Shown: piece by piece, positions 29,916 through 57,189 of the stretch | Position numbering within the stretch: the stretch's first letter is position 1 | Layout of the letters: each line of letters begins with the position of its first letter | Assembly (NCBI GenBank): GCA_027307235.1 | Contig: DAHUXH010000013.1 | Span: 248,001 to 312,000 of the forward strand | Source of the DNA: Vulcanimicrobiota bacterium | GTDB lineage: Bacteria; Vulcanimicrobiota; Vulcanimicrobiia; Vulcanimicrobiales; Vulcanimicrobiaceae | Direction: 5' to 3' | DNA: 64,000 bases | Made by a program: the position numbers and the translations under genes | The notes under the pieces: generated by a model | Told to the model about the DNA's origin: nothing | The model's database searches: none | What the model saw: the letters and a program-made list of their open reading frames with translations, nothing else

Positions 29916-33782
<3,867 letters not shown>

Positions 33783-33804: not shown

Positions 33805-33834
33805 AGAGACCCGGTCGAAAGACCGGGTCTCTTT
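33805..33834 (+). terminator. Rho-independent terminator of rpoB
   Basis: A 12-bp perfect stem (AGAGACCCGGTC with its complement) around a GAAA tetraloop, followed by TTATT, starting 23 bp after rpoB. Its 3' edge overlaps the stop codon of the convergent LuxR gene, which it may also terminate. It shows that rpoB is transcribed without rpoC. Confidence 0.88.
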
Positions 33835-35389
33835 ATTGCAGCAAGCCGAGTCGTGACGCGGCGACGAGGAGTTGGGAGCGGTTCTTCACCCCGAACTTCC
33901 GATGGATCGACCGGATGTGATTGCGGATGGTGTTCGGCTTGGTACCCAGTCGCGCCGCCGTATCTTCAATCGAACCGCCCGCACACAGGACCTCAAACAC
34001 GTTGCGCTCCGTGGGCGTCAGCACGTTCAAGCTCGGCGTGCGCGCCCGCAGTTGCTTCCGCTCGACTTCCACAGCGATAAACGATCGCGGGTAATCGCGG
34101 ATCTTCTCAGCAGCCTCGGCGAGCCATCGATCACCGCCGCCGCAGGCGTGCATGATCAGCGCCGCGCGAGCGGCGCGCCAGTTGAAGCGCAGACGCCTAA
34201 AAATCTCGAATGCGGCGCTCGCGTGGCTCAACGCGCGATGCGAGTTCCCGAGGCTCTGCTCGATCGCGGCGCGCGCATAGTGTTCCATTCCAAGCAGCCG
34301 CTTCGTATGGCGAAAGCCAGAGCTTTCCGGAATGCGATCCCGCACGGCGAAGTAGTGATCGAGGTGCTCGCGGGCGCGATGCGGATCGACCCGTGCGAAG
34401 AGTTCGGCCGCGAGCAAGAGCGCGACGACCTCCTCATTCTGCGTTTGGCTCCAGTCTAGCGAACGAATCAAATCATCCGCATCGAGCAGCTCCGCCTGCG
34501 CGGTGGAAGCTTCGCCGGTCGCAAACGCCATCATCGCATGGTCGAGCCGCGACAACACCAACCAAAACTTCGACGGAGCAAGCTCCTTCGACCGATTGAC
34601 CGAGCGAATGCCATGAATGTAATCGCCCTGCATCGCGACCGCCCATCCCAGTGCTCGAAACGTCTGGAATTCTTCGAGATGGCTGTCATGCGGCCATGGA
34701 AAATTCCGCGCAAGCGCTACCGCGAAGTCGGTCGCCTGCGGAATAAAGACCTCGCGGCATACGCCAGCGAGTGCATGTAATGCCTTGTACATGACGCCGA
34801 GATCGGGCACCGACGCCTGCTGCATCGTCGTCAGGCCCTTGACGAGAAGGTCACCTTGAGCTGTGAACCGATCGTTTGAAGCCGCGATCCACGAGTGTAG
34901 AATGAGAGCCTTTGTTTCAGCGACGGGATCTTCAGTATCCATGTGGCGCAGCAGGTCCTGCGCGCGCTGCGCCTGCCCGGCTCTCCAGGCGCAGAGTGCT
35001 CGCGTATACTGCACCTCGGTTTGCAGATCGTCGGATTGGGCGCGGAGACTAGCGTTTGAAATGCGCGACAGAGCCTCTTGGGCCGCTGCCGTGTCGCCCT
35101 GGCCGCTCGATGCCAACGCGAGCAACATAAGCGATTCGATTCGTTCCGCTGGTGTGACAAAGTGCGGCGTGCCTGCCGCAATCATTTGACCAGCACGGTC
35201 GAACTGGCCGGACCAATAGGCAGCCGTTGCCGCAGTAAGAAATCGCTCCGCTGACGGCGGTAAGCCGTCGCATACTTTCAGGCACTGGGCATACGCCCCG
35301 GCGTGTACTAATGCGCGCGCGTAGACGAGTTCGGCGTGGTGAGATGGCGGAGCACCTCGAGCGTTCTTTCTCTCCGGGGTGTGCGCCAT
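33833..35389 (-). CDS. LuxR-type regulator with TPR-like N-terminal helical repeats
   Basis: A 518-residue regulator. Residues 1 to about 440 are helical repeats of TPR type (for example ERFLTAATAAYWSGQFDRAGQM), a fold often used to bind peptides or proteins. The last 65 residues are a LuxR/FixJ helix-turn-helix: LTPTERNVFEVLCAGGSIED, TAARLGTKPNTIRNHIRSIH, RKFGVKNRSQL. There is no receiver and no STAND ATPase motif. The start codon and its AGAGGTGAG lie in one arm of a perfect 12-bp inverted repeat. A tiny exported peptide gene lies 66 bp upstream on the same strand, and an HD-GYP-like gene beyond it. I infer that it senses that peptide or a related signal. Confidence 0.85.
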   Translation of the reverse strand: MAHTPERKNARGAPPSHHAELVYARALVHAGAYAQCLKVCDGLPPSAERFLTAATAAYWSGQFDRAGQMIAAGTPHFVTPAERIESLMLLALASSGQGDTAAAQEALSRISNASLRAQSDDLQTEVQYTRALCAWRAGQAQRAQDLLRHMDTEDPVAETKALILHSWIAASNDRFTAQGDLLVKGLTTMQQASVPDLGVMYKALHALAGVCREVFIPQATDFAVALARNFPWPHDSHLEEFQTFRALGWAVAMQGDYIHGIRSVNRSKELAPSKFWLVLSRLDHAMMAFATGEASTAQAELLDADDLIRSLDWSQTQNEEVVALLLAAELFARVDPHRAREHLDHYFAVRDRIPESSGFRHTKRLLGMEHYARAAIEQSLGNSHRALSHASAAFEIFRRLRFNWRAARAALIMHACGGGDRWLAEAAEKIRDYPRSFIAVEVERKQLRARTPSLNVLTPTERNVFEVLCAGGSIEDTAARLGTKPNTIRNHIRSIHRKFGVKNRSQLLVAASRLGLLQ

Positions 35390-35395
35390 CTCACC
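35338..35395 (-). promoter_or_regulatory. Inverted repeat covering the LuxR regulator's start codon
   Basis: GGTGAGATGGCG (minus strand, 35395-35384) contains the end of the ribosome binding site and the ATG. Its perfect 12-base complement lies 34 bases downstream at 35349-35338, within codons 13-17 or so. In mRNA this would form a hairpin hiding the start codon. As DNA it could instead be an operator. Confidence 0.6.
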
Positions 35396-35455
35396 TCTCT
35401 GTTATAGCGAACGCGGGTGCGCTTGAACGTCTTCCTAATGACCCGCTAGGGTCAG

Positions 35456-35665
35456 CTACATCGGGCCACCCGAGGTGTCACTGCTCGGAGGTGGCGTGGG
35501 TGCCGTTGCCGCGAGCGGCGGGCGTACTCCTGCCATGGGACCGCCCGAACTGTCGCCGATGGGAACCGGCGTGGATGCGACAGCGGGATGAACGCCTCCC
35601 ATCGGGCCACCCGATGTGTCGAGAAACGACGACATTCCGGCGATAAGGAGAAGAACGTAGAGCAT
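35456..35665 (-). CDS. Tiny exported peptide with three DxSGGPM repeats
   Basis: A 69-residue product: a hydrophobic start (MLYVLLLIAGMSS, about 1-14) like a short signal, then three copies of D-[ST]-S-G-G-P-M. The first two (about 16-27 and 38-49) continue [GA]-G-V-[HR]-P; the third (63-69) ends exactly at the stop codon. Spacers are Pro/Ala/Thr-rich. An AAAGGAG lies 8 bases before the ATG at 35665, so translation is likely. The repeat layout suggests a precursor cut into short signalling peptides. It lies upstream of, and in line with, the LuxR gene, and a palindrome sits in its promoter region. I know no named family. Confidence 0.7.
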   Translation of the reverse strand: MLYVLLLIAGMSSFLDTSGGPMGGVHPAVASTPVPIGDSSGGPMAGVRPPLAATAPTPPPSSDTSGGPM

Positions 35666-35695
35666 CGTGAAGACTCCTTTTTGCAAAGTGCAGAA

Positions 35696-35715
35696 TATAG
35701 TCGGTAACGACTATA
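35696..35715. promoter_or_regulatory. Perfect 20-bp palindrome upstream of the peptide gene
   Basis: TATAGTCG-GTAA-CGACTATA: two exact 8-base arms with a 4-base centre, 30 bp before the peptide ATG. On the minus strand the inner edge overlaps a -10-like TATATT (35699-35694). Size and symmetry fit a dimeric LuxR-type operator; the neighbouring regulator is the obvious candidate to bind it. Confidence 0.6.
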
Positions 35716-35855
35716 CCCTAGGCTTACCACAGAGCATGGCGCCGGACCTTATGAAAGCCGACCCGAATCGCGTGTTGCGCGGTACCGTATCGTCGGTTTC
35801 GCGTACAGGATTTTAGGGCTGCGCCGGCACTGCAGGGGATTGCTATGCTGCACCT

Positions 35856-36353
35856 GTGGCGGGATGTTCCAATGTGGCGAGCGATGATGGCGAGGCGGCC
35901 TGCGAGGCTCTCATCGAGAGGGCGATCGACGTGCTGCTCGCCGAGGCGACGGGCGGCGATGTCTGGCAACGTCAGCACCTCCGGCGAACCGGCGAGTTTG
36001 CCAAGCGGATCGCCGAAGAACTCGATGGAGCTTTCTCCGCGCAGTTCATCCGCAGATGCGCGCTTCTGTCCGGCATACCACCCCGCGTGCTGAACCTCAT
36101 ACCGGAATTACGCGGGTTCGCTCGCGTGGTCGCCTACTGTCAGGAGCCCGAAGCAACCCCTTCCGGCGACCCGCTGCTGATCATCACGCGCGCGATCGTC
36201 GAAGTATCCGACGCCTTCGACCGCATGATCGATGACCAAGATCACCGCTCACGATTCACGCCAGCCGCTGCCCTCGATGCTCTCTACGCCCATCCGCGCT
36301 ACTCACGTGCCATCGTCGAAGCCCTCGCACACGCTCTCCACGGCACGCCATAA
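35856..36353 (+). CDS. Degenerate HD-GYP-like protein
   Basis: A 165-residue protein that aligns by eye with the intact HD-GYP protein at 56206-57189. RRTGEFAKRIAEEL corresponds to SRATAEWARRLCTVL, FIRRCALLSGI to FVERCAILHDLGK, and RAIVEVSDAFDRMI...HRSRFTP to ARIIAVADAFHAMI...HRRAMAP. The HD pair is replaced by SG, and the segment bearing HHE...GYP is largely missing, so it should not hydrolyse cyclic di-GMP. It could bind a nucleotide or a partner protein. It starts at GTG 35856 and is divergent from the peptide gene, with the palindrome between them. Confidence 0.65.
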   Translation: MAGCSNVASDDGEAACEALIERAIDVLLAEATGGDVWQRQHLRRTGEFAKRIAEELDGAFSAQFIRRCALLSGIPPRVLNLIPELRGFARVVAYCQEPEATPSGDPLLIITRAIVEVSDAFDRMIDDQDHRSRFTPAAALDALYAHPRYSRAIVEALAHALHGTP

Positions 36354-53071: not shown

Positions 53072-53412
53072 TCGAGGTCTTTTACCGGTACCGGGTGCAT
53101 CGCTCGCAGGTTCGTGCGTTCGAGCATGCCTTTGGGCCGACCGGACCATGGACGCAGTTGTTCTCGCAGCATCCCGGCTTCATCCGGACGCGGTTATTCC
53201 GCCATCGCGACGACGTTTCAACCTATCTGACCATCGACGTGTGGGAGGACAAACCGGTGTGGGACGCTTTTCGCGCGGCGCAGGCGCGCGCGTATGCGGA
53301 GTTGGACCGCCGCCTGCGGCTGCTCTACCTCGAGGAACTGCTGCTCGGGTATTACGAAGGGACCGAACAATACGCGCTTCCGGCCGATAGTAAAAGAGGG
53401 GGGGACAGGTGA
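53068..53412 (+). CDS. Antibiotic-biosynthesis-monooxygenase-like (ABM) protein
   Basis: A 114-residue alpha+beta dimeric-barrel protein. The pattern EVFYRYRVHRSQVRAFEHAF, HPGFIRTRLFRHRDD and YLTIDVWEDKPVWDAF is typical of ABM/EthD-like domains, some of which oxidise aromatic compounds or bind haem. No catalytic residue can be assigned. Both ends overlap neighbours by 4 bp, so it is coupled to the SnoaL-like gene and to the STAND-LuxR gene. Confidence 0.75.
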   Translation: MIEVFYRYRVHRSQVRAFEHAFGPTGPWTQLFSQHPGFIRTRLFRHRDDVSTYLTIDVWEDKPVWDAFRAAQARAYAELDRRLRLLYLEELLLGYYEGTEQYALPADSKRGGDR

Positions 53413-56042
53413 TTCGGCCGGTAACGTCCGACGGGCAGATCGAAACTGGCGGCGCTTTTGCGCCGATTGCCCGGCCGCGCGTGAGTGCGCGGATCGCCGC
53501 CGCAGCCCGCGAACGCATCACCCTGATCGCGGCTCCCGCGGGATTCGGCAAGACGGTCGCGCTGCGCGCATTCTTGGAGACGTACGCCGGTCCGGTCGCG
53601 CGCTTTGACGTGCGCGCCGAGCACGCGACACTGCTCGCATTCTTGCGCGGTTTCTCGCTCGCTCTCGCGCCGATCGCACCCGATCTCGTTCCGACGCTGC
53701 CTTCCGCGTACGAGCGCTGCTCGTCGGGCCTTGATGCGGTAGATGATTTGGCGAGTTGGATGGATGCCCACCTCGCGTCGTTCAACGGGATGATCGCGAT
53801 CGACGATCTCCACCGAACCGACGGCGCCGACGGCGATGTGTCCGCCTTTCTCGCCGCGTTGATCGATCGCACCAAGATGCACATCCGATGGATCGTGGCG
53901 ACGCGCAACTCGTTCGAATTGCCGGTGGCAACTTGGCTTGCGTACGCCGACATGGACATGACCATCGATGAACGTGATCTGGCGTTCACCCTCGACGAAG
54001 CGCGTTTGGCGGCGAAGGCCTCGAAGCTATCGGTACGCGACGAAGAGCTTTCCGCAATTCTGAAGTTGACCGAGGGCTGGCCGTTCGCACTCAGTTTCGC
54101 GCTGCGTTGGACGACGCGCTCGGTCGATTTGGAGAACGTGTCGGCAAACACGCGCGAGCTGGTCTACGCGTATCTCGCCGAGCAGGTCTATCGCGCGCTA
54201 ACCGAAGAGGAAAGCGCATTGCTGGCGGTTGCGGCGCTTCTTCCCGAGATCGACGTGAACGTCCTGAGGCATGCCGGGTTCAATCATGCCATCGAAATCA
54301 TCGACGCATTGCGTCGCCGCGTGTCGTTCGTGTACGCCGAGGGCAACGGAATCTTCCGCTGTCACGATCTCTTCCGCGATTTCATCATCGACCGCAACGA
54401 GCGCAAAGGCTCGGAGCACTTCGAAGCCTTGCAGATTCGCGCCGCCCGTGCGCTAGAGGCGTCCGGCGCGCCGCTGGCGGCGCTGTTGTTGTTCACGCAT
54501 GCGCGCGCGCTCGACGACGTGATGCGGCTGCTCGAACGGGATGGCGTCGCCGCCATCGACCGCGGCGAAGCCGACGTCATCGCCGGCGCGCTGGATCTGT
54601 TCGATCAGAAGCACGACAGTCTGCCGCCGATCGTTGCGTTTCTCAAAGGACTGGTCGCGTCACTGCGCGGCGCGAGCGATCAAGGGCGTGCGTTGCTGAA
54701 GAAGGCGTTCGAGAAAGCGGCGCAGCCGCAACTGCGCGTGCGGATCGCAACGCGCTTGGCGATGATCGACGTCACCGCCGGCCGTGAGGTGGAAGCCGCC
54801 GTGCTGGCGGCGCTCGACGCGCCCTGCGACGACCTCGACCTTTCCGGCGAGGCGATTGCCGCGAAAGCGGCGGCATTGGCGCGTCAGCGCGAGTCGGCAG
54901 GTTCCCAAGCGGCCATCGCTCGCGCGCTCGAGGTGTCGGCAGAACTCGAAGGCGACGACGTACGCGCACGCATCTTGGAAAAATGTTCGTTGGCCGCGAT
55001 GGACTGCGGCGACATCGAGCAGTCCTACGATCTCGGCAAACGCGCGGCGGAGTTTGCGACTTCCTCCAAACAGTACAGCGTCGCGAGCAAGGCGTACATT
55101 TTGGTCGGCATCGCCGAGACCACGCTGCGGGATGACGTGCACAAGTATGTCGACTGGTGCGAAGCCGCATTGAAAGCGGCCCGGTTGGCGGGCGATGCGT
55201 TCGACGTTCAAGCGACGCTGATCGGTCTTGGCAACGCGATGCTGCGGCTGGGCGATCTCACGCGCGCGGTGGAGATTGCGGGGCAGCTCGCCGCGCTGCG
55301 ATTGCACCCGGTCATCCGTTCGATCTATTTTCCGGTCCTGGGCGGACTGATCGCGGGCTGGGACAGTCGCTATCGTGATTCGCATCTCGCGCTCAACTCG
55401 GTGTGGCAGCGTCTCCCGCTCTGCGAGGATCGGGCGCAGACCGCAGCCATCTGCGCTTTGATGTTCGCGCTCGACGAACGATCCGATGAAGCCAAGGCCA
55501 CCGTGGCGGCGGCTCTCGCCGAGATCGAGGCCGCGGTCTCACCCTACCAGCACAATCGGCGCAGTCTCGTCGTCGCGGTCGCCTTCTGCGCCCTCGCGGA
55601 GTTCGCCGACGGCCGCAAGACCTCGGCGAATCGGCTTCTAGGCCGGCTGGGACGTTTCGATGACGCCGTCGCGCGGGCCATCCGAAGCGCCGTCGGCGAG
55701 GCCTGTGAATACCCGATGCGGGCCGTTCACGACGCGGCCGAGGGTGCGAACGCTTTCGAGACCCTCGCAGACGAGGGCTACGGCGGCATCGGTCGACTGA
55801 TCGCCTTGGTCGCGGCCAAGTTCATGGACGAAGAACCGGTGACCAGCACGACCTTGACTCCCTCCGAACTCGCGGTGCTCCGGGATGTCGCCAACGGGGC
55901 CAGTCCCAAGCAAATCGCGATCCGGACCGGCCGCAGCTTGACCACGGTGCAGACCCAGATCCAGAAGGCGATGGTGAAACTCGGGTGCCACAGCCGCACC
56001 GAGGCGGTGGCGACCGCTCGCCGGCTCGGCATGCTGGTGTAA
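53409..56042 (+). CDS. STAND-LuxR (MalT-like) transcriptional regulator
   Basis: An 877-residue regulator. P-loop AAPAGFGKT is at 41-49, Walker B MIAIDDLHR at about 127-135, then a winged-helix region and a long TPR-like array. A LuxR HTH closes the protein (about 816-877: LTPSELAVLRDVANGASPKQ, TGRSLTTVQTQIQKAM). MalT-type proteins bind an inducer in the repeat array and ATP in the STAND domain. The start is GTG 53409, overlapping the ABM gene by 4 bp. A perfect 18-bp palindrome lies 5 bp after its stop, followed by a 22-residue peptide gene and an HD-GYP gene, which are likely targets. Confidence 0.88.
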   Translation: MIRPVTSDGQIETGGAFAPIARPRVSARIAAAARERITLIAAPAGFGKTVALRAFLETYAGPVARFDVRAEHATLLAFLRGFSLALAPIAPDLVPTLPSAYERCSSGLDAVDDLASWMDAHLASFNGMIAIDDLHRTDGADGDVSAFLAALIDRTKMHIRWIVATRNSFELPVATWLAYADMDMTIDERDLAFTLDEARLAAKASKLSVRDEELSAILKLTEGWPFALSFALRWTTRSVDLENVSANTRELVYAYLAEQVYRALTEEESALLAVAALLPEIDVNVLRHAGFNHAIEIIDALRRRVSFVYAEGNGIFRCHDLFRDFIIDRNERKGSEHFEALQIRAARALEASGAPLAALLLFTHARALDDVMRLLERDGVAAIDRGEADVIAGALDLFDQKHDSLPPIVAFLKGLVASLRGASDQGRALLKKAFEKAAQPQLRVRIATRLAMIDVTAGREVEAAVLAALDAPCDDLDLSGEAIAAKAAALARQRESAGSQAAIARALEVSAELEGDDVRARILEKCSLAAMDCGDIEQSYDLGKRAAEFATSSKQYSVASKAYILVGIAETTLRDDVHKYVDWCEAALKAARLAGDAFDVQATLIGLGNAMLRLGDLTRAVEIAGQLAALRLHPVIRSIYFPVLGGLIAGWDSRYRDSHLALNSVWQRLPLCEDRAQTAAICALMFALDERSDEAKATVAAALAEIEAAVSPYQHNRRSLVVAVAFCALAEFADGRKTSANRLLGRLGRFDDAVARAIRSAVGEACEYPMRAVHDAAEGANAFETLADEGYGGIGRLIALVAAKFMDEEPVTSTTLTPSELAVLRDVANGASPKQIAIRTGRSLTTVQTQIQKAMVKLGCHSRTEAVATARRLGMLV

Positions 56043-56046
56043 AACC

Positions 56047-56064
56047 GTACTGAATTTTCAGTAC
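56047..56064. promoter_or_regulatory. Perfect 18-bp palindrome upstream of the 22-residue peptide gene
   Basis: GTACTGAA-TT-TTCAGTAC, exact 8-base arms, 68 bp before the micropeptide ATG and 5 bp after the STAND-LuxR stop. No T-run follows, so an operator is more likely than a terminator. A weak -10-like TACGCT at 56088-56093 would place the palindrome centre about 45 bp upstream of the start point, where LuxR-type activators usually bind. Confidence 0.55.
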
Positions 56065-56131
56065 AGACCGGCTCCCCCCTCGGGCGGTACGCTTACACCA
56101 AGCCACCACCGCCACTCTAAGGGAGCCTCAC

Positions 56132-56200
56132 ATGTCACTCGTCCTCGCCCTCCTCGCCCTCGCAGCCGCCGGTATCGTCTTTCCGCCCACGGGCGGGTAG
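56132..56200 (+). CDS. 22-residue hydrophobic micropeptide
   Basis: A frame of 22 codons: hydrophobic start MSLVLALLALAAAG followed by IVFPPTGG. AAGGGAG lies 6 bases before the ATG, stronger than most ribosome binding sites in this window, so translation is very plausible. It stops 5 bp before the HD-GYP start and may be needed to couple that gene's translation. It could act as a leader peptide, a membrane peptide or a signal precursor with a C-terminal PPTGG. Too short for homology. Confidence 0.55.
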   Translation: MSLVLALLALAAAGIVFPPTGG

Positions 56201-56205
56201 CTGTC

Positions 56206-57189
56206 ATGGCCATCCGTTCAGCAAGTGAGTTGGGTTCGGCCCTCGCGGGCCGCCTCGCCGCCATCGTGCAGGCGGCGCGGACCGACCTCGCGCCCACCAC
56301 CGACGAGTCCGTGGAAGCGGAACTGTCATCCCTCTCCGATCGCCTGTGCATGTCGCTGACTTTCTCGCGGCCGATCGGTTTGGAATCGTGGGCGCGCGCC
56401 ACCGCTGAACGCCGCGGAAAGATCGAAGCGACGGCTATCGTCGGCGCCGTCGTCCGCGCCATCTTGAACCTCTCATCGTCCTATCAGGTCGAGAGCCGGC
56501 AACTCGTCGCGGCGCTCGAACCCTTCATCGCCGTCATCGATGCGGCGATGCACCCGAACCGTCACCTGGAGACGCGCGACGATCACGGCGCGGCAGCGGC
56601 CGTCGTTGACGCGCTCGTCTCCGTAGTGCAGGAGCGCGACGCGCTGACCGGCTGTCATTCTCGTGCAACCGCTGAATGGGCACGCCGGCTCTGTACCGTC
56701 CTCGGCCTCTCACCCGAAACGACGGAGTTCGTCGAGCGCTGCGCGATCTTGCACGACCTCGGCAAGATCGCCACGCCCGACGACATTTTGCAGAAACCCG
56801 CTGAATTGAGTTCATCGGAGTGGAGCGTCATGCGCGATCACTCCGCCGCCGGACAGCGGATTCTTGAGCGCATTCCGTCCCTGCATCGCTGCGCGATCGT
56901 CGTCCGCGCGCATCATGAAAGCTTCGACGGAACCGGTTACCCCGATGGACTTCGGGGCGTGAACATCCCCCTTGAAGCACGCATCATCGCGGTGGCGGAT
57001 GCCTTCCATGCGATGATCAGCGAGCGCCCGCACCGCCGTGCCATGGCTCCGCGAACCGCGCTGGAGATCATCGCGGCCGGCGCCGGCAAACAATGGGATC
57101 CCGACGTCTGCGCCGCATTGGCGAGCATGCTGATACACGCCGACGAAACGCCTGCCGACGTCCGTCCGGTCACGATTTCCTATGCCTAA
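56206..57189 (+). CDS. HD-GYP domain protein
   Basis: A 327-residue protein. The N-terminal 140 residues are helical with no sensor family I recognise. From about 150 an HD-GYP domain follows with H183-D184 (HDLGK), RDHSAAGQRIL, H236-H237 (AHHESFDGTGYPDGLRG), then IIAVADAFHAM. The metal ligands and GYP loop are intact, so cyclic di-GMP hydrolysis is likely. It lies 5 bp after the micropeptide and ends in a good terminator. A degenerate relative sits at 35856-36353. Confidence 0.9.
   Translation: MAIRSASELGSALAGRLAAIVQAARTDLAPTTDESVEAELSSLSDRLCMSLTFSRPIGLESWARATAERRGKIEATAIVGAVVRAILNLSSSYQVESRQLVAALEPFIAVIDAAMHPNRHLETRDDHGAAAAVVDALVSVVQERDALTGCHSRATAEWARRLCTVLGLSPETTEFVERCAILHDLGKIATPDDILQKPAELSSSEWSVMRDHSAAGQRILERIPSLHRCAIVVRAHHESFDGTGYPDGLRGVNIPLEARIIAVADAFHAMISERPHRRAMAPRTALEIIAAGAGKQWDPDVCAALASMLIHADETPADVRPVTISYA

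Follow-up and report, generated by a model that had tools for sequence, protein, structure and literature searches.

A signal-bearing small peptide gene paired with a TPR-LuxR regulator in Candidatus Eremiobacterota: a putative counterpart of the RRNPP circuits

Peptide quorum sensing is regarded as the mode of Bacillota, and small molecules as that of Pseudomonadota and Actinomycetota (PMC10075063). Receptors of the RRNPP group possess an N-terminal DNA-binding domain of the HTH_3 type (PF01381; HTH, helix-turn-helix) or none, and the default settings of an RRNPP detector look for a propeptide of 10-100 residues situated -60 to 400 bp from a receptor of 250-500 residues (PMC10075063). The RRNPPA family has been described in Firmicutes (PMC9765709). 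The subject of this work is a locus of a Vulcanimicrobiota bacterium (assembly GCA_027307235.1, a genome of 2.4 Mb in 20 contigs), in which a regulator made of tetratricopeptide repeats (TPR) and a LuxR-type HTH is encoded next to a small peptide. The locus lies in a stretch of 64,000 nucleotides (contig DAHUXH010000013.1, positions 248,001 to 312,000), which is called the window and numbered from its first letter.

The locus resembles Rap-Phr, NprR-NprX, PlcR-PapR and AimR-AimP in that a small, putatively exported propeptide adjoins a TPR receptor, presumably cytoplasmic, and in that the propeptides are multi-copy. The peptide and its gap (69 residues, 66 bp) are within the range of the detector, and the receptor, with 518 residues, is just above the default limit. 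The DNA-binding domain is different: the preliminary description held that RRNPP regulators use other domains, and the N-terminal HTH_3 or none reported for them indeed contrasts with the C-terminal GerE/LuxR HTH found here, so the system can be called RRNPP by logic and not by membership. Further differences are the host, which belongs to Candidatus Eremiobacterota and not to Bacillota, the lipobox of many precursors, as many as 13 units in one precursor, a recurring D-x-x-GG motif, a TAG-N3-N4-N3-CTA dyad as putative operator and a divergent neighbour, an apparently dead HD-GYP gene.

Three genes lie between rpoB (29916..33782, plus strand) and a cupin gene: the regulator gene, an open reading frame (ORF) of 69 residues and a divergent ORF of 165 residues. 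The propeptide gene (35456..35665, coding part 35459..35665, minus strand) is recognised by its ORF, by its placement in relatives and by repeats whose differences are mostly synonymous. The ORF is confirmed as it had been noticed before, with a signal-like start, on the same strand as the regulator gene and separated from it by 66 bp after its stop codon, and a Shine-Dalgarno site AAGGAG (35674..35679, minus strand) sits at a normal distance ahead of its ATG. The hydrophobic start reaches a Kyte-Doolittle score of 2.37, and no Pfam match was obtained for the propeptide. It contains three D[TS]SGGPM units on the minus strand, DTSGGPM (35600..35620), DSSGGPM (35534..35554) and again DTSGGPM (35459..35479). 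The last unit is preceded by TPTPPPSS, runs up to the stop codon and is the predicted mature peptide, by a PPPxxD context that is found in three other precursors of the genome; a longer version of this tail is TPPPSSDTSGGPM.

The pairing of peptide and regulator genes is not confined to the window. Loci with homologues of the regulator were gathered (107 in number), and among 149 genomes of the phylum that were searched 70 gave a match at E <= 1e-15. A sister clade with a large upstream lipoprotein was left out of the pairing count; the remaining homologues with enough upstream sequence were 82, and 179 further genes of these loci served as controls. At 67 of the 82 homologues and at 29 of the 179 controls the end of a short ORF with a signal lies on the same strand no more than 260 bp upstream (Fisher p 1e-24), and when the signal must also be followed by a [DE]-x(1-3)-GG motif the counts are 54/82 and 7/179 (p 3e-27); these p-values are optimistic because related loci are counted as independent, and the contrast is understated if anything, since two of the seven motif-positive controls stand at genes of the regulator family. 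The effect is seen across deep branches of the receptor tree, and the gap between propeptide and receptor has a median of 62 bp. A Shine-Dalgarno-like motif is present before 53 of 69 propeptide starts, compared with 491 of 4691 ATGs (about 10%), and start codons are uncertain for some small ORFs. A lipobox-like cysteine occurs in 28 of the 69 precursors. Beside the same regulator family the peptide frame is kept in dozens of genomes, whereas its lack of conservation would, by the preliminary description, have refuted the idea. It could be argued that the small ORF is spurious, as GC-rich genomes yield such frames and signal-like ORFs stand upstream of 16% of control genes, but this explanation is contradicted by the enrichment, the Shine-Dalgarno sites, the repeats and the purifying selection described below, and its probability is negligible.

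A search of relatives with the peptide sequence gave weak matches only, and the pairing is visible only through the receptor. Regulator relatives in named records all belong to Candidatus Eremiobacterota or Eremiobacteria. Of two scans of genome contigs one was empty and the other returned only close relatives of one clade (Eremiobacterota/Eremiobacteria); other phyla were barely searched by these scans, and absence there is not established. In a plasmid search only the GerE part of the regulator found matches. Some receptors depart from the usual layout. The second-closest receptor to that of the window (L123 of genome G096, 36-37% identity) lacks both a propeptide and an HD-GYP-like neighbour and is perhaps an orphan receptor reading the peptide of a paralogue. 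In the sister clade mentioned above (L016, L017, L178-L180, L184, L189, L192, L199) the small propeptide is replaced by a lipoprotein of about 300-330 residues directly upstream, which comprises DUF4382 and a carboxypeptidase-regulatory-like domain (one member tested); in several of these lipoproteins a D-x-x-GG-like motif follows shortly after the lipobox.

Many precursors are multi-copy, with 2-13 near-identical units, and each precursor has its own unit. DTSGGPM is present three times in the window with one T/S change, and other precursors contain DTPGGPIP three times (L041), ADSIGGPL three times and variants five times (L175, L015), DSVGGGPP seven times (L135), SVGGGPP 13 times (L140), VVGGGPTP eight times (L160), DTIGGGF three times (L168), DTGTTTG three times (L197), EGSHPPY three times (L052), ADGTLPPY twice (L050) and DTLSTSGPPG twice (L191). 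The SGGPM repeats on which the preliminary description relied are present in the window as three D[TS]SGGPM units, and as a general mark they have to be widened, SGGPM being the version of this locus of the D-x-x-GG motif. Summed over 24 precursors, differences between units of the same precursor are seen at 97 of 165 synonymous and 5 of 393 nonsynonymous sites, where the nonsynonymous count is biased low because the units were picked by protein sequence. The synonymous divergence shows that the units are of long standing and maintained as protein sequence, and that they are not recent duplications of DNA. A measure free of the bias of unit picking, the dN/dS of precursors of related receptors, is roughly 0.06-0.4 in pairs with an estimable dS. 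Both measures show the protein-level constraint on the peptide frame that the earlier reading had called for. An alternative is that the peptide stays in the cell, is never exported and modulates the regulator with which it is co-expressed, its hydrophobic segment being a membrane tether only. Peptide and regulator are apparently co-transcribed, given the 66-bp gap, and the lipobox-like sites would keep the chain at the membrane. Nevertheless, a signal stands at the N-terminus of the precursor and the units lie in the part presumed to be outside, and it is difficult to account for arrays of as many as 13 units if they are not cut, which makes this explanation improbable.

Five receptors of this genome have such precursors, each with its own tail: DTSGGPM in the window, DSVGGGPG (L033), DTGGGPSGK (L034), EDSGGVMPGK (L035) and DNTGGIGI (L036). 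In four of the five tails (window, L033, L034, L036) a PPP-x-x-D context precedes the last unit, and the receptors are only 22-31% identical. PPPxxDxxGGxGG or related patterns, sought as DNA, have five sites in the genome, four of which are these precursors; a search by the PPPxxDxxGG pattern for a further precursor lacking a receptor gave none that was convincing. The shared context suggests a common maturation step cutting before D, as by one protease, or an exchange among precursors. Tails within this genome are more similar to each other (mean score 47.8) than tails of different genomes (24.9), and such sharing is absent in the other genomes taken together.

The locus also has an operator-like dyad, TATAGTCG-gtaa-CGACTATA (35696..35715; core TAGTCG-N4-CGACTA, 35698-35713), a putative operator formed by 8-bp arms around 4 nt. 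It had been taken for a perfect 20-bp palindrome, which is ruled out by the 4-nt centre gtaa; the actual structure is 8+4+8, and what stands of that claim are perfect arms of 8 bp, a non-chance occurrence and a position between the peptide and HD-GYP-like genes. The dyad is beyond chance because no second site within 3 mismatches exists in the window and exact TAGTCG-N4-CGACTA sites in the 2.4-Mb genome are two only, one at the window locus and one at the paralogous locus L033, both with the propeptide gene on one side and a divergent HD-GYP-like gene on the other. The same core is found in L168, L173 and L197 (the last with a 5-nt spacer), and with one mismatch in L015 and L175. Over 69 loci, the density of TAGNNN-N4-NNNCTA dyads in the 120 bp ahead of the propeptide is about 136 times that of other positions, the spacer is 4 in 14 of 16 TAG dyads before propeptides, and no leading triplet of the 64 possible except TAG and CTA, which overlaps it, is enriched like that. 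Among the exact 16-bp dyads of all loci (n=20), 18 are located before the propeptide or receptor gene or between the two, two shortly beyond the 3' end of the receptor gene and one farther off; the dyad of L162, one of the 18, lies between propeptide and receptor, and that of L165 is 1.4 kb upstream.

The inner triplet of the dyad varies by clade, as is expected of operators with separate specificity. A single operator common to all clades was considered and is ruled out by this dependence on clade and by several clades without an exact dyad. Comparison of the recognition helix with the inner triplet in 18 rows revealed no simple link. Two loci (L181, L193) have a TAGCCC-N4-GGGCTA dyad 85 bp before the receptor gene and no propeptide was found there; it may be very short or lost.

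The regulator gene (33833..35389, minus strand) encodes the 518-residue receptor, assigned by ORF, Pfam and an AlphaFold (AF2) model. The earlier description of a LuxR-type regulator with TPR-like repeats holds: the GerE/LuxR HTH occupies residues 456-510 (33860..34024, minus strand; PF00196, E 7.7e-11), and the TPR superhelix, presumed to be the peptide-binding part, residues 17-430 (34100..35341, minus strand), as seen from helix pairs in the model and from Rap and NprR rows that align over 79-434. TPR matches in Pfam are weak. The model has a mean confidence (predicted local distance difference test, pLDDT) of 94.3 and is all-helical, a right-handed stack of helix pairs followed by GerE, and a GerE domain was found in 49 of 50 members of the family. 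In structural alignment (VIA-align) the top rows are Rap with peptide (Z 22.6), phage Rap with pheromones, RapI, domain III of MalT (Z 21.5), NprR and AimR. The best fold matches include the RRNPP receptors Rap, NprR and AimR (Z 17-23), at an identity of 6-11%. Foldseek ranks eukaryotic TPR proteins at the top, and among the best 60 of 173 matches of a sequence search the solved chains are generic TPR and GerE proteins.

Two further groups of LuxR-type proteins have to be compared. Regulators of the MalT type (large ATP-binding regulators of the LuxR family) have the same order of a TPR-like sensor and a C-terminal GerE HTH, and MalT is the best row of the window regulator in NCBIfam, via the HTH only. 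The window regulator lacks the nucleotide-binding oligomerization domain (NOD), the N-terminal ATPase part of about 400 residues in MalT, so that it has 518 residues instead of about 900 with TPR from residue 17, and it is paired with a peptide gene. The ligand of MalT is maltotriose. Receptors of acyl-homoserine lactones (LuxR, CviR, RhlR) share the C-terminal GerE HTH; here TPR stands in place of the autoinducer-binding domain and a peptide gene in place of the luxI synthase gene. The fold match with MalT domain III gives weight to the explanation that the small exported protein is itself an effector (a lipoprotein, a bacteriocin-like or an envelope peptide) controlled by a regulator which senses something else, as MalT senses maltotriose. 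The lipobox-like cysteines and the DUF4382 lipoprotein in the place of the small peptide in the sister clade point in the same direction. A signal fits better, however, with units preserved exactly between drifting spacers, with their C-terminal location and with different units for each receptor of one genome; moreover, no immunity, transport or modification gene is present at the window locus between rpoB and the cupin gene, and the D-x-x-GG motif occurs near the start even of DUF4382 lipoproteins. The effector explanation is considered unlikely.

The divergent gene (35856..36353, plus strand, 165 residues, GTG start uncertain) was assigned by hhalign, Foldseek and the loci of eight relatives. 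Pfam gave no match and no HD domain for its product. It was previously described as a degenerate HD-GYP gene facing away, and this is upheld: hhalign links an alignment of nine relatives to the intact HD-GYP protein of the window (56206-57189) with a probability of 96.9%, and ranks 1-8 of Foldseek on the predicted fold are all HD-GYP, at modest E-values. In alignment to the intact protein, the metal-binding and catalytic H, HD, HH and GYP residues are lost and a loop is deleted. The gene shares the fold and a detectable sequence relation with HD-GYP phosphodiesterases of cyclic di-GMP (c-di-GMP), and by its sequence the product is a pseudoenzyme, unlike these enzymes devoid of catalytic residues and perhaps a sensor or partner; because it is a pseudoenzyme, a role in c-di-GMP sensing or as a protein partner is a guess. 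HD-GYP-like genes recur at receptors of the window clade (L033, L122, L015, L175, L198, L168, L173, and weaker in L197), at 130-190 bp from the propeptide where measured. That this dead HD-GYP is the conserved neighbour, and that no modifying enzyme, transporter or protease stands beside the window locus, also speaks against the idea of a ribosomally made and modified natural product with the repeats as core peptides and the regulator as pathway regulator. Multi-core precursors are known from modified-peptide families, yet such a product is very improbable here.

Elsewhere in the window, a MalT-like regulator of 877 residues (AAA and GerE) is followed by the intact HD-GYP gene (together 53409..57189). 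Within the window this is the closest intact relative of the dead gene at 35856. A GC-rich stem-loop (33806..33831), read from the sequence between the convergent rpoB and regulator genes, is probably a two-way terminator.

The whole can be put together as a circuit. The 69-residue propeptide would be exported via its N-terminal signal and cut by a protease after the TPPPSS-type spacer, giving peptides of about 7 residues, predicted as DTSGGPM. The peptides would return into the cell, plausibly through an oligopeptide permease; five Opp-type binding proteins (SBP_bac_5) are encoded in the genome. The inner face of the TPR superhelix would bind the peptide, and a regulator dimer would act through the C-terminal GerE HTH on the TAGTCG-N4-CGACTA dyad, from which it would control the propeptide-regulator operon (autoregulation) and the divergent, catalytically dead HD-GYP gene. 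This full loop, an RRNPP-like circuit of exported peptide and TPR receptor with a different DNA-binding domain, is considered probable. The interpretation given in the preliminary description is supported as a whole, and its mechanism we infer.

Several points weigh against the circuit. The analysis shows the pairing of the genes, the constraint on the coding sequence, the structure of the repeats, the dyad with its position, the recurrence of the HD-GYP-like neighbour and the similarity of fold; that the peptide is exported, cut, released, taken up again and bound, that the regulator binds DNA and whether it activates or represses are steps that we infer, and the signals of all small ORFs were judged by hydrophobicity alone. 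At 15 of the 82 homologues the precursor was undetected, the precursors with a lipobox-like cysteine may be lipid-anchored chains, and the recurring GG motif could serve another role. The fold match supports peptide binding and does not prove it, because TPR proteins resemble each other and the LGN row scores nearly as high as the best ones (Z about 20). Whole proteins are also bound by TPR superhelices, and that of MalT binds a sugar.

No such system was found in the open-licence PMC literature, and the odds that it forms a class independent of RRNPP, rather than a variant of it, are fair. The wider proposal has somewhat better than even prospects: a phylum-wide class of peptide pheromones independent of RRNPP, with multi-copy exported D-x-x-GG precursors, TPR receptors with a C-terminal LuxR HTH, TAG-N3-N4-N3-CTA operators, several parallel channels per genome (five here) and the dead HD-GYP as an original output, maybe linking cell density to c-di-GMP.

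Soil bacteria of Eremiobacterota, a candidate phylum that has hardly been studied, have many such gene pairs, which look like a new kind of peptide-hormone signalling that evolved independently. If this is true, an uncultured lineage has evolved a logic like that of Bacillota with a LuxR DNA-binding domain. This would clearly exemplify convergence and suggest TPR-LuxR proteins elsewhere as unrecognised peptide receptors. The dozens of predicted sets of receptor, peptide and operator offer a first handle on signalling in Eremiobacterota.

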